Shown here: piece by piece, positions 32,657 through 48,251 of the stretch | How positions within the stretch are numbered: the first letter of the stretch is position 1 | Layout of the letters: each line of letters begins with the position of its first letter | Assembly: GCF_900465355.1 (NCBI RefSeq) | Contig: NZ_LS483254.1 | Span: 682,001-746,000, forward strand | Direction of reading: 5' to 3' | Source of the DNA: Candidatus Bipolaricaulis anaerobius | GTDB taxonomy: Bacteria > Bipolaricaulota > Bipolaricaulia > Bipolaricaulales > Bipolaricaulaceae | DNA length: 64,000 nucleotides | Made by a program: the position numbers and the translations under genes | The notes under the pieces: generated by a model | Told to the model about the DNA's origin: nothing | The model's database searches: none | What the model saw: the letters and a program-made list of their open reading frames with translations, nothing else

Positions 32657-33565
32657 ATGCGGGTCCTAATATGCGATCCAGTGGAAGAGAAGGCCCTCGC
32701 CCGGCTCCGTGGGGCCGGGATGGAGGTCGTGGTCCGCACGGGGATGGCCCCGGATGATCTCGCGGCGGAGCTCGCCAAGGGGTACGACGCGATCGTCGTT
32801 CGATCGGCGACGAAGGTGCGCAAGCCCGCGCTCGACGCGGCGCGGGGCCTCAAGCTCATCGTCCGCGCCGGGGTGGGGCTGGACAACGTGGATAGCGACC
32901 ACGCTCGGGCGAAGGGGATCGAGGTCGTGAACACGCCCAAGGCCAGTTCGGACTCCGTGGCGGAGCTCGCCTTGGCCCACATGTTCGCCCTCGCCCGCTC
33001 CCTCCCCCAGGCCACGCGCTCCATCCAGGACGGCAAGTGGGAGAAGAAGGCATTCGTGGGGATTGAGCTCCAGGGGAAGACCCTCGGCGTGGTGGGGATC
33101 GGGCGGATCGGCCAGGCCCTTGCCCGGCGTGCCCTCGCCCTCGGGATGAAGGTGATCGCCTGCGACAAGTTCCTCACGGCCTCGCCCATCCCCGGCGTTC
33201 CCCTCGTTCCCTTCGCCGATCTCCTCCGGCAGAGCGACTTCGTCTCCCTCCACGTCCCGGCTGACCCGGCCGGTCCCGTGCTCGGGGGGCGCGAGTTCGC
33301 CCAGATGAAGGACGGGGCCTACCTCGTCAACTGCGCCCGCGGCGAGGTGGTGGACGAGGGAGCGCTTCTCGTCGCCCTCCGGTCGGGCAAGCTCGCCGGG
33401 GCGGGGCTCGACGTGTTTTCGGTCGAGCCACCCACCAACCTGGAACTCGTCCGCCATCCCAAGGTCACCCTCACCCCCCACATCGGGGCCCAGACGAAGG
33501 AGGCCCAGGAACGGATCGGGGACGAGGTGGTGGAGATCCTCCTCCGGCACGCGCGGGCGGGTTGA
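32657..33565 (+). CDS. serA: D-3-phosphoglycerate dehydrogenase, short type
   Basis: A 302-residue NAD-dependent 2-hydroxyacid dehydrogenase that should oxidise 3-phosphoglycerate in the first step of serine synthesis. The nucleotide motif is GVVGIGRIGQALARRAL, the catalytic Arg lies in LVNCARGEVVDEGAL, and the Glu/His pair in VFSVEPP and TPHIGAQT. It lacks the C-terminal ACT domain, so feedback inhibition by serine through that domain is absent; this short form is common in anaerobes. It lies between the class V aminotransferase and a DUF1015 gene in one operon. Confidence 0.9.
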   Translation: MRVLICDPVEEKALARLRGAGMEVVVRTGMAPDDLAAELAKGYDAIVVRSATKVRKPALDAARGLKLIVRAGVGLDNVDSDHARAKGIEVVNTPKASSDSVAELALAHMFALARSLPQATRSIQDGKWEKKAFVGIELQGKTLGVVGIGRIGQALARRALALGMKVIACDKFLTASPIPGVPLVPFADLLRQSDFVSLHVPADPAGPVLGGREFAQMKDGAYLVNCARGEVVDEGALLVALRSGKLAGAGLDVFSVEPPTNLELVRHPKVTLTPHIGAQTKEAQERIGDEVVEILLRHARAG

Positions 33566-33567
33566 CG

Positions 33568-34902
33568 ATGGCGGTCGTCTACCCCTTCCGCGGCCTCCGC
33601 TATGACCCCTCGCTCGTGGGGGACCTCTCGAACGTCGTCACCCAGCCCTACGATCGGATCGGCCCCGACGAGGAACGGGCCTACCTTGCGCGCTCGCCCT
33701 ATAGCTACGTCCGCCTCATCGGGACGAAGTCCCCTCCCCCGGACGAGGCGGACTACGCCCGCCGGGCGGAGCTCCTCCGGGCGTGGATTCGCGATGGGAT
33801 CCTGGTCCACGACGAGGAACCGGGGATCTACCTCTACCGTCAGAGGTTCCGGATGTCCCTCGACCCTCATCCGTCGCTCGGGGACCGGAAACCGGAGGCC
33901 GTCCTCACCCGGCAAGGTCTGATCGCCCTCCTCGACCTCGCGCAGAGCGGGGCGAAGGCCCACGAGCACACCCTGCGCGGCCCGAAGGAGGACCGGCTGA
34001 AGCTCCTCCGGGCCACGGAAGCCCACCTCGAGCACATCTTCCTCCTCTACCGCGATCCGGCGCGCACGGCGACGGCTGTGGCCGAAGGGGCGATCGCCGG
34101 GCGCCCCCCCGACCTCACTGCGCGGGACGACTTCGGGAACATCCATGACCTCTGGTACATCGCGGATCCGGACACGGTGAGGACCATCCAGGGCGCCTTC
34201 GTTCCTCTTGAGCTCTACATCGCCGATGGGCACCACCGGTTCGAGACGGCGCGGGCGTTCATGCGTGAGTGCGGGGCCAAGGGGTGGAGACCAAAATCCC
34301 CTCAAAGTTTCACAGCATTGCCCGTCACCCTCGTCAACGTCGAGGAGCCGGGGTGCGTCATCCGTCCGACACCGCGGGTCGTGCACAGCCTGCCCGCGTT
34401 CTCCCCTCAAGCGTTCCTGAAGGAGGCGGGGCGGGAGTTCGCCGTCGCGCCGGTGGGGTCGCTCGCTGAGGCGAAGGCGGCCCTCGCCGCCGCGCAGGGG
34501 GCAAGGCACACGTTCATCCTCTACGCCGAGGGGAAGTTCTGGTCCCTCACCCTCCGTGACGAGAGCCGGCTGGACCACCTCATCCCGGGCGATCATCCCC
34601 CGGCGTGGAAGCGGCTCGATGTGGCGATCCTCCACAAGGCGATCCTCGATCCGCTCCTCGGGATCGACGATGAGGCCCTCGCCCGTCAGGCGAACGTGGA
34701 CTACGCACACACCGCCGAGGAGGCGATCGCCCTCGTGGATGCGGGGAGGGGCCAGGCCGCGTTCCTCCTCAACCCGACCCGGGTCGAGGACGTGCTCACC
34801 ATCGCCGACCTCGGGGTCTCGATGCCCCAGAAGTCCACCGACTTCTACCCCAAGCTCCTGTCGGGACTTGTGGCGATGACGATGGAGATCGAGAAGCCAT
34901 GA
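33568..34902 (+). CDS. DUF1015 family protein of the serine operon
   Basis: A 444-residue cytoplasmic protein. It opens with the DUF1015 start VVYPFRGLRYDP and continues with NVVTQPYDRIGPDE, YLYRQRF and ELYIADGHHRFETA, all typical. The family (also called HTSC-like or kinase-like DUF1015) has no well-defined activity that I can state, but it is repeatedly found next to serA and an aminotransferase, as here. DGHHR with an acidic partner may be a nucleotide or metal site. The ATG at 33568 lies 2 nt after the serA stop. A hairpin-rich intergenic region follows the stop. Confidence 0.9.
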   Translation: MAVVYPFRGLRYDPSLVGDLSNVVTQPYDRIGPDEERAYLARSPYSYVRLIGTKSPPPDEADYARRAELLRAWIRDGILVHDEEPGIYLYRQRFRMSLDPHPSLGDRKPEAVLTRQGLIALLDLAQSGAKAHEHTLRGPKEDRLKLLRATEAHLEHIFLLYRDPARTATAVAEGAIAGRPPDLTARDDFGNIHDLWYIADPDTVRTIQGAFVPLELYIADGHHRFETARAFMRECGAKGWRPKSPQSFTALPVTLVNVEEPGCVIRPTPRVVHSLPAFSPQAFLKEAGREFAVAPVGSLAEAKAALAAAQGARHTFILYAEGKFWSLTLRDESRLDHLIPGDHPPAWKRLDVAILHKAILDPLLGIDDEALARQANVDYAHTAEEAIALVDAGRGQAAFLLNPTRVEDVLTIADLGVSMPQKSTDFYPKLLSGLVAMTMEIEKP

Positions 34903-35236
34903 GCCATCGCCCGCAGCCCCCCATGATCTTCTGGTAGGAAGAGGGTGGGGCGGAGGCACTGGCCTCCGCCCCTTGGGTGGGATCGCCGTGGATGTGGCCA
35001 CGGCGGGGGTGGCAGATCCTGATCACCTTGCGCTGCCAACTTCTCTTGCCAGGAGCGCATCCTGGTGGGGCAAGGACCCCTGGGCTTGCCCGCCCATCAC
35101 GGCGGATGGTGCCCCCTCGCCCTGGACGTAACGTGTAAAACCTATGGACTTCCGATGGAGGCAGGAGCGCACCGCCGAGGTTTGCGATCGGACCCGCGGA
35201 GCCACGTTGCCTGGCCGGCGCGGATGGGGGACGATC
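34903..35236. other. Hairpin-rich intergenic region before carbonic anhydrase
   Basis: A 334-base gap without a convincing gene. It contains five consecutive inverted repeats between 34947 and 35091 (listed separately). The right part, 35092-35236, can be read as an N-terminal extension of the carbonic anhydrase, but the reading is arginine-rich and unlike the family, so I leave it as leader. Confidence 0.6.
34947..35091. ncRNA. Candidate structured RNA: five tandem stem-loops
   Basis: Five inverted repeats follow one another: 34947-34972 (11-bp stem GGGGCGGAGGC, 4-nt loop), 34984-35005 (8 bp, CGCCGTGG, 6-nt loop), 35010-35038 (6 bp, TGGCAG), 35049-35065 (6 bp, CCAGGA, 5-nt loop) and 35068-35091 (7 bp, GGGCAAG). 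The first may be the terminator of the serine operon. The others could form a leader of the carbonic anhydrase mRNA or a separate small RNA. I see no match to SRP RNA, 6S RNA, RNase P or a known riboswitch. Strand is unknown. Confidence 0.35.
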
Positions 35237-35857
35237 ATGGGGAGGAACGACCCCGTGGACCCTGCACCGCTCCTACAGCTCCTCGCGGACGGGAACCAGC
35301 GCCACGCGCGTGGCGCCCACCGCCATCCCCATCAGGACGTGTCCCGGAGGGTGGACCTCGCCTCCGGCCAGAGGCCGTGGGCCGCGATCCTCGGCTGTTC
35401 CGACTCGCGGGTCCCGCCGGAGATCGTGTTCGACCAAGGGCTGGGTGACCTGTTCGTCGTCCGCACCGCGGGCCACGTGTGCGATGCCGCGGTGACGGCC
35501 AGCCTCAGCTACGCTGTCGTGCACCTGCACGTGCCGCTGGTGGTCGTCCTCGGCCACGGGGGGTGCGGCGCCGTTCAGGCGGCCCTCAACCGGCGTCCTG
35601 CTGAGCCCGCGGACTGCCTGTGCACCGCGATCGAGCCGGCGATCGCGGTGGCGCGCCTCGGCCCAGGTGACTTGAGTGCCCTGACCGTGCGGTTCCACGT
35701 TCAACGGACGGTGGAGCACGTGCGCGGTGCCCTGCCCGGCCTCCCCCGCGCGGATGTGGTGGGCGCGGTGTACGACCTCGCGTCGGGCATTGTGGAGTTC
35801 CTTGACCTCCTCTCCCCGCTTGACTTAGCGTGGCCACCGGGTAGGATGCCTCAGTAA
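35237..35857 (+). CDS. Beta-class carbonic anhydrase
   Basis: A 206-residue zinc enzyme that interconverts CO2 and bicarbonate. The zinc ligands and Asp-Arg dyad are in CSDSRVPPEIVFDQGLGD and in GHGGCGAVQ (His-x-x-Cys), so it is a complete beta-class enzyme. I use the ATG at 35237 after GGGGGA; an earlier in-frame ATG at 35144 would add 31 arginine-rich residues unlike the family. It lies 55 nt before aconitase and in the same direction as the isocitrate dehydrogenase and ATP-citrate lyase genes. A link to CO2 supply for reductive carboxylation is therefore attractive, though inferred. Confidence 0.92.
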   Translation: MGRNDPVDPAPLLQLLADGNQRHARGAHRHPHQDVSRRVDLASGQRPWAAILGCSDSRVPPEIVFDQGLGDLFVVRTAGHVCDAAVTASLSYAVVHLHVPLVVVLGHGGCGAVQAALNRRPAEPADCLCTAIEPAIAVARLGPGDLSALTVRFHVQRTVEHVRGALPGLPRADVVGAVYDLASGIVEFLDLLSPLDLAWPPGRMPQ

Positions 35858-35866
35858 CTGGGACGT

Positions 35867-35885
35867 TGTCTCGTATTTTGAGACA
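35867..35885. promoter_or_regulatory. Inverted repeat before aconitase, possible IclR operator
   Basis: TGTCTC (35867-35872) and GAGACA (35880-35885) flank a 7-nt AT-rich centre, in a 55-nt gap. The centre contains TATTTT, a possible -10. An IclR regulator is encoded in the same cluster, so this is a reasonable operator candidate. Confidence 0.4.
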
Positions 35886-47587: not shown

Positions 47588-48223
47588 ATGAAGGTCTCCG
47601 CTATCATTCCAGCATTCAACGAAGCGGAACGCATCGCGGCTGTGCTTGCCCCCCTCACCTCCTCGCCCGCGGTGGACGAGGTCATTGTCGTGGACGATGG
47701 GTCCACGGACGCGACCTCCGCGGAAGCGGAGCGGTTCGGCGTGCGCCTGGTCCGCCTGCCGGAGAACCGCGGCAAGGCGGCGGCGATGGCCGCTGGGGTG
47801 GAAGAGGCCCGCGGTGACGTTCTCCTGTTCCTCGATGCTGACCTCACCGGCCTCACCCCGTCGCACATCGCGACGATGGTGGATGCCTACCGGGCAGGGG
47901 ACGCCGACGTGGTGATCGGCGTGTTCTGCGATGGGCGCCTTGGGACCGACCTCTCGCAGCGGATCGCGGGGTTCCTGTCCGGACAGAGGGTGATGTCCCG
48001 CGCTCATTGGGAGCGGGCCCGCGGCGCGGTGGAGGACACCGAGTTCGGCATCGAGACCGCGCTGACACGGCTGGCGCTGAAGGAAGGATGGCGGACGAAA
48101 AAGGTCATGCTGAGTGGGGTGAGCCACATCCGCAAGGAGGAGAAGCGGGGGTTCTGGCTCGGGTTCACCGACCGGATGGCGATGTACTGGGATGTCGTTC
48201 GGTCGTTCTTCCGCAAGCTGTGA
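47588..48223 (+). CDS. Family 2 glycosyltransferase
   Basis: A 211-residue single-domain GT-A enzyme. It has KVSAIIPAFNEAERIAAVL, the nucleotide-sugar motif VIVVDDGSTDAT, and DVLLFLDADLTGL with the DxD metal site. There are no transmembrane helices, so it resembles dolichol-phosphate-mannose-type soluble transferases or glucosyl-3-phosphoglycerate synthase-like enzymes. It probably transfers a sugar to a lipid or phosphate carrier; exact substrates unknown. It has its own strong promoter, and a hairpin follows before rho. The ATG at 47588 lacks a clear Shine-Dalgarno. Confidence 0.88.
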   Translation: MKVSAIIPAFNEAERIAAVLAPLTSSPAVDEVIVVDDGSTDATSAEAERFGVRLVRLPENRGKAAAMAAGVEEARGDVLLFLDADLTGLTPSHIATMVDAYRAGDADVVIGVFCDGRLGTDLSQRIAGFLSGQRVMSRAHWERARGAVEDTEFGIETALTRLALKEGWRTKKVMLSGVSHIRKEEKRGFWLGFTDRMAMYWDVVRSFFRKL

Positions 48224-48231
48224 CGAGGGGG

Positions 48232-48251
48232 GCGGAGGCTCTGGCCTCCGC
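48232..48251. repeat. Intergenic hairpin shared with 34947-34972
   Basis: An 8-bp stem GCGGAGGC/GCCTCCGC with a TCTG loop, 8 nt after the glycosyltransferase stop. The arms are identical to the core of the hairpin after the DUF1015 gene and the loop differs by one base, so the two are copies of one small palindrome. It may act as a terminator without a T-run. Confidence 0.5.

Follow-up and report, generated by a model that had tools for sequence, protein, structure and literature searches.

A conserved, hairpin-rich intergenic element of one Bipolaricaulota genus: a candidate stand-alone noncoding RNA

The locus and its features

The window is the whole stretch of 64,000 nt that was analysed, namely positions 682001-746000 of the 1.32-Mb one-contig genome G000. 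The genome belongs to the Bipolaricaulota, which are known almost only from metagenomes. On its left the element described here is bordered by a DUF1015 gene (33562-34902) and on its right by a carbonic anhydrase gene, which is followed by the genes for an aconitase and an IclR-type regulator. The parts of the element and the features next to it are listed below with their positions in the window.

34939-35015, + strand: invariant core of 77 nt, AAGAGGG-Y-(hairpin 1)-UUGGGUGGGAU-(hairpin 2)-GGGGUGGCAG, defined by alignments and a covariance model
34943-34945, 34975-34977, 34979-34981 and 35006-35009, + strand: four G-tracts outside the hairpins, invariant in 11 of 11 sequences
34947-34972, + strand: hairpin 1, a perfect inverted repeat of 11 bp with a 4-nt loop
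34984-35005, + strand: hairpin 2, a perfect inverted repeat of 8 bp with a loop of 6 nt, the length of the loop being its sole variable part
35049-35065, + strand: linker hairpin P4, 6 bp with a loop of 5 nt, a perfect repeat in the window and covarying
35068-35091, + strand: hairpin of 7 bp with a loop of 10 nt, intact only in the window and in its nearest relative (G007), outside the conserved element
35095-35111, + strand: linker hairpin P5 (in the window CAUCA/UGGUG), its arms being those of a seven-sequence consensus fold
35120-35161, + strand: box 2, a second conserved block found by alignment, with predicted hairpins at 35123-35137 and 35142-35158 and a direct repeat CCTRTGGA
35237-35857, + strand: downstream gene of a beta-type carbonic anhydrase (Pro_CA; Pfam PF00484, E 7e-31), with its start at 35144 or 35237
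35820-35847, + strand: promoter-like site of the aconitase, TTGACT-N16-TAGGAT, located within the last part of the carbonic anhydrase gene and read from the sequence

The preliminary description had reported five tandem hairpins with stems of 6-11 bp in 145 bases (34947-35091). This span contains four inverted repeats that are perfect, do not overlap and have stems of at least 6 bp (11, 8, 6 and 7 bp), and they are beyond chance. At least four perfect repeats per 145 nt occurred in none of 300 dinucleotide shuffles and in one of 440 segments of 145 nt tiled over the 64 kb, and the total of 32 stem bp was reached by no dinucleotide shuffle (n = 300) and by no tiled segment (n = 440). The fifth hairpin is an imperfect predicted stem after 35005 and is not among the perfect repeats of at least 5 bp. 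The hairpins do not form one series across the genus either, as two of them are kept genus-wide, one covaries in seven of 11 sequences and one is confined to the nearest relative. The conserved feature runs on beyond this span to approx. 35161.

The structured nature of the element, which had been made to depend on GC-matched shuffles folding less well and on compensatory changes in relatives, was borne out on both counts: dinucleotide shuffles folded worse, and compensatory changes were found. A region of 181 nt folded with z -2.5 on the + strand and z -2.4 on the - strand, and on each strand 2 of 200 dinucleotide shuffles were as good. The folding excess was located in hairpins 1 and 2, while the linker and the downstream box had a z of 0.0 in the window itself.

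Distribution of the element

With the 338-nt gap as query, blastn was run on 60 genomes, i.e. the window's own and 59 relatives, and the element was detected in 10 of the 11 other members of the genus with E 2.7e-24 or better. The twelfth genus genome, G008, is 73% complete and gave a best E of 0.077. Its aconitase match begins at base 4 of the contig, so the region upstream is not assembled there. A covariance model of the core (R1) was built from ten sequences, with one of two near-identical rows omitted; it scored 95-111 bits in 11 of the 12 genus genomes, and the core is single copy in G000 at E <= 0.001. Outside the genus, the best score was 30 bits among 28 other genomes of the family and 32 bits among 100 genomes of the phylum. 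Twelve weak loci in other genera (23-32 bits) were considered as distant homologues and rejected, being by eye terminator-like hairpins or coding-like sequence, none with both hairpins and the joint sequence. In the screen of other genera, an aconitase match at E <= 1e-100 was obtained in 4 of 26 genomes, one of which is G008; the other three matched with 55-56% identity, and the core model found nothing in these three.

The exact pattern of the two joints was searched in 84,980 species and returned nine records, all of the window's genus. One of the nine, the metagenome assembly DYGJ01000026.1 (L032), is filed as Thermotoga sp. under a name that looks wrong. In viral contigs, the exact pattern had no match.

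Conservation and structure of the core

In an 81-column alignment of the core, 68 columns were identical in 10 of 10 sequences. The variation lies mostly in the hairpin loops, a loop-closing pair and one joint base: the variable sites are the Y base that precedes hairpin 1, the loop of this hairpin with the pair that closes it, the length of the hairpin 2 loop and one base at the 3' edge. For comparison, four-fold degenerate third positions were invariant at 32 of 139 sites (23%, ten sequences) in the DUF1015 gene and at 92 of 283 sites (33%, eight sequences) in the aconitase gene, and 77-nt segments of these two genes had at most 63 and 67 invariant bases, respectively. The core columns are far more invariant than the four-fold sites of the neighbours, and the core is thus under much stronger constraint than they are.

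Ten pairs of hairpin 1 are constant, and the loop-closing pair is U-A, C-G or U-G, a two-sided change in one of the 11 pairs. The stem of hairpin 2 shows no variation and hence has no compensatory pairs. For both hairpins together, 61 of 500 shuffles reached the observed covariation score; as the two stems hardly vary, covariation cannot prove either of them. The stems, too, are nearly free of change, which suggests that the sequence of the core, and not its shape alone, is recognised by a protein or RNA partner. On the + strand, z for folding of the core ranged from -1.9 to -4.3 over all 11 sequences. In every one of them UUGGG comes after hairpin 1 and GGGGU after hairpin 2, and the combination of a GC-rich hairpin with a U-tract that marks an intrinsic terminator was found at neither hairpin. 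No reading frame can run through the core, since the loop of hairpin 2 has indels of 1 and 2 nt.

Linker hairpins and box 2

The linker between the core and box 2 varies in length. Picked like P5 after inspection of the sequences, P4 was paired in 35 of 35 cells (five pairs in seven sequences) with two-sided changes in three pairs, and 0 of 500 shuffles were as good; this count omits four of the 11 sequences (L010, L013, L017 and L018), in which the hairpin is missing or not alignable. The position of P4 coincides with the place where MAFFT aligned the sequences without structure. P5 was paired in 43 of 45 cells in nine of the 11 sequences, and both breaks are in G005.

In the alignment of box 2, 19 of 42 columns are invariant in 11 sequences. 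The box 2 hairpins were paired in 91.7% of cells with a two-sided change in one of 12 pairs, and 21 of 500 shuffles were as good. The block also holds a dyad, TGGACGTAACGTGTA, and TGCACA-N3-TGTGCA is found in two genomes. In the consensus folds of both seven and nine sequences, RNAalifold offered a possible pairing of GGGU of the G-rich joints with ACCU of box 2, the Y base showing no covariation.

At 35142-35158, different frames of box 2 give MDFLWR or LDVPCKTCGLPVE, and the block contains a direct repeat spaced by 11 bp. A coding reading was rejected: both frames look protein-like, but the ORF tails and the frames differ between genomes. The tails of these mini-ORFs mostly leave the carbonic anhydrase frame, and the variable columns of box 2 have no preference for third positions (by eye).

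Neighbouring genes and a possible leader function

The gene on the left of the element is DUF1015 in G000 and G007, that of a Lar_N protein in G005 and a divergent gene for a DOMON protein in the others. The DOMON gene adjoins the core in eight of the 11 genomes (e.g. L012:1930-2829, minus strand), truncated to 129 of 300 residues in G004. It is absent from G000 and G007, and in G005 fragments of it lie on another contig. On the right, carbonic anhydrase directly follows the element in nine of the 11 genomes with its start approx. 41-147 nt past box 2. It was absent at E <= 1e-5 from G004 and G005, both of which have the core; a tie of the hairpins to carbonic anhydrase, upstream of which the preliminary description had placed them, was therefore not supported. 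Identity at four-fold sites among G004, G005 and the window is 0.71, 0.71 and 0.67, with 0.71 for G004 versus G005, and in a tree of eight aconitases with modest support (87/91) the two are not sisters. Given this distance and branching, two separate losses of carbonic anhydrase may have occurred, the element being retained both times. The element is independent of carbonic anhydrase and of the DOMON gene. As it outlives its neighbouring genes, it is probably a small RNA gene rather than a carbonic anhydrase switch.

The aconitase gene lies downstream in all eight loci in which its start is within reach. Its promoter-like site, TTGACT-N16-TAGGAT, also stands between the element and the aconitase start in G004 and G005, and an aconitase leader as the main reading was rejected because of this separate site. 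Right after the promoter-like site, the window contains a palindrome, TGTCTC-N7-GAGACA (35867-35885), which is likely an operator for aconitase; a like palindrome precedes aconitase in G004 and a less exact one in G005. In a promoter scan (score >= 8.5), no site was detected upstream of the core on the + strand in 11 sequences, and none in the 300 nt after box 2 before carbonic anhydrase in nine genomes. At this cut-off, carbonic anhydrase has no promoter-like site before it and may thus depend on read-through. No U-tract terminator was noticed at the end of the element.

The main rival to a stand-alone RNA is a cis-acting leader, riboswitch-like or an attenuator, of the downstream unit. Its target would be carbonic anhydrase in nine genomes and aconitase in two, with the core as sensor and the linker and box 2 as the switch. 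The order of core, linker and gene on the + strand in all genomes is consistent with a leader, as are the short distance to carbonic anhydrase and the result of the promoter scan after box 2. The invariant core with its variable linker also looks like an aptamer, since aptamers typically have this appearance. However, the core is kept without carbonic anhydrase in G004 and G005, which are as distant from each other as each is from the window, and the aconitase that a leader would serve there has its own promoter-like site past the element. In addition, box 2 is conserved although it lies 100-166 nt from the core and away from the start codon. The constant association with a gene that is typical of riboswitches and leaders was not found, with carbonic anhydrase missing in two of the 11 genomes that bear the element. 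A leader is overall a possible reading of the locus, though not a probable one.

Strand and remaining alternatives

Consensus folding of the whole element beat shuffles on both strands, and folding of the core was stronger on the - strand (z -4.6 to -6.4) than on the + strand. For linker and box 2 in nine sequences, 1 of 60 column shuffles had a consensus energy as good on the + strand and 13 of 60 on the - strand. The two consensus folds had 79 G-U and 12 A-C cells on the + strand, against 28 and 26 on the - strand. Helices H1, P4, P5 and P6 had 20 G-U cells and no A-C cell, a count that is biased by the choice of P4 to P6 on the + strand. The linker shuffles and G-U counts favour the + strand, though with this bias in the choice of helices.

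An element acting as DNA would be a protein-binding site, or a replication or recombination site at which hairpins or a G-quadruplex are extruded once the DNA is single-stranded, with box 2 as an operator. The invariant stem sequences are what a bound DNA site would have, and the dyad and direct repeat of box 2 point the same way. It is nevertheless unlikely, since the changes cluster in hairpin loops, G-U prevails over A-C in the four helices (biased, as most of them were picked on the + strand), and the element has no fixed chromosomal place relative to dnaA. A replication origin or terminus was rejected, as dnaA is 538 kb (0.41 of the circle) away in G000 and 0.35 of the circle away in G009, both one-contig genomes.

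A minus-strand RNA would be a 5' UTR or a small RNA on the DOMON side, and its C-rich single strands could pair with G-rich mRNA starts. The divergent DOMON gene beside most cores and the good folding of the core on this strand would suit such an RNA. It is very unlikely in view of the unchanged core where the DOMON gene is gone (G000 and G007) or not at the locus (G005), and of the linker folding and G-U wobbles that favour the opposite strand.

That hairpin 1 is a terminator-like 3'-end hairpin of the upstream gene and the rest is chance is hardly credible: hairpins resembling it do follow stop codons at 48232-48251 and in L047, L048 and L050 of other genera, but the same 77 nt stand beside three different left neighbours, which contradicts this reading, no U-tract is present, and the conservation reaches hairpin 2 and box 2. 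The hairpin at 48232-48251 shares the inner stem of hairpin 1 (GCGGAGGC-N4-GCCTCCGC) and lies 9 nt past the stop codon of an ORF that ends at 48223.

A candidate stand-alone RNA

The best explanation, with a probability of about 50%, is an independent structured noncoding RNA gene on the + strand of approx. 220 nt (roughly 34939-35161) that would be special to one Bipolaricaulota genus. The element is conserved, is present in single copy and has hairpins with compensatory changes, as a stand-alone noncoding RNA should have; two-sided changes occur in three of five pairs of P4, one of 11 of hairpin 1 and one of 12 of box 2. Counted against this reading are the lack of a + strand promoter-like site upstream in the scan, the lack of a U-tract at the end and a gene order like that of a leader.

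The element would be transcribed as one RNA from the + strand. The 5' part of this RNA would be the near-invariant core, whose two GC-rich hairpins are linked by single-stranded G-rich segments, followed by the variable linker with the small covarying hairpins P4 and P5 and then by box 2 with two short hairpins. The RNA would act in trans or as a protein-binding RNA, and its core would probably be read by a partner. Where carbonic anhydrase is present (nine genomes), the RNA may extend into its gene. An RNA that has stayed almost identical in sequence throughout the genus while its neighbours were lost would be likely to have an indispensable task.

The four invariant G-tracts are possible strands of a G-quadruplex or could make other tertiary contacts, and there is no conserved C-rich segment to pair with the three G-rich joints. 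The arrangement could fit a putative hairpin-looped quadruplex with the layout GGG-hairpin 1-UU-GGG-U-GGG-AU-hairpin 2-GGGG. The spacing pattern of the tracts starts at 26 places on the + strand and at 15 on the - strand of the window and is thus common by chance in this G-rich DNA. A genus-wide stand-alone RNA whose core is a three-layer G-quadruplex (GGG / GGG / GGG / GGGG) with the hairpins as long loops, and which acts in trans or as a scaffold for proteins in a lineage of thermophiles without a recognised 6S RNA, is doubtful as a whole. The hairpin-looped fold is known mainly from selected aptamers; if the core did adopt it, the element would be a natural example.

Comparison with known RNAs

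The earlier statement that the hairpins match no known RNA class was supported for the families of Rfam 15. Rfam 15 gave no match in the 64-kb window at the gathering threshold and none over the element in the relatives L010, L013, L016 and L018; the best hits were at chance level with 20 bits against thresholds of 73-95. 6S RNA (RF00013) was detected in none of the 12 genus genomes at E <= 1, and as the control search found it in just 6 of 14 genomes known to have it, a test of low power, this miss says little. An identity with SRP RNA was ruled out, since its gene lies elsewhere in 11 of 12 genomes, and the same applies to RNase P RNA and tmRNA, the genes of which lie elsewhere in G000 and G009. 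A keyword search of narrow scope for literature on noncoding RNA, riboswitches or small RNAs in Bipolaricaulota, Acetothermia or Bipolaricaulis found none.

The element resembles 6S RNA in being single copy, stand-alone and about 200 nt long, and no 6S RNA is recognised in the window's genus. However, 6S RNA folds into one long rod with a central bubble, while the consensus of the element consists of separate hairpins with at best a closing helix of 4 bp. With riboswitches and leader RNAs it shares the invariant core, the variable linker and a downstream gene, but it is retained where this gene has been lost, and a promoter-like site of its own precedes the following gene. G-tracts joined by hairpins, as in the core, are also found in hairpin-looped RNA G-quadruplexes, both natural ones and selected aptamers; in the core such a fold would be putative. 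Lineage-specific structured noncoding RNA motifs from comparative genomics (e.g. PMC2864571, a study of 104 motifs, and PMC11109978, a study of 50 genomes) are likewise intergenic, conserved, hairpin-rich, limited to one lineage and of function not known. In contrast to such motifs, the element is not in Rfam 15 and comes from a phylum for which the keyword search found no such paper; a small RNA gene of a new kind is its probable nature.
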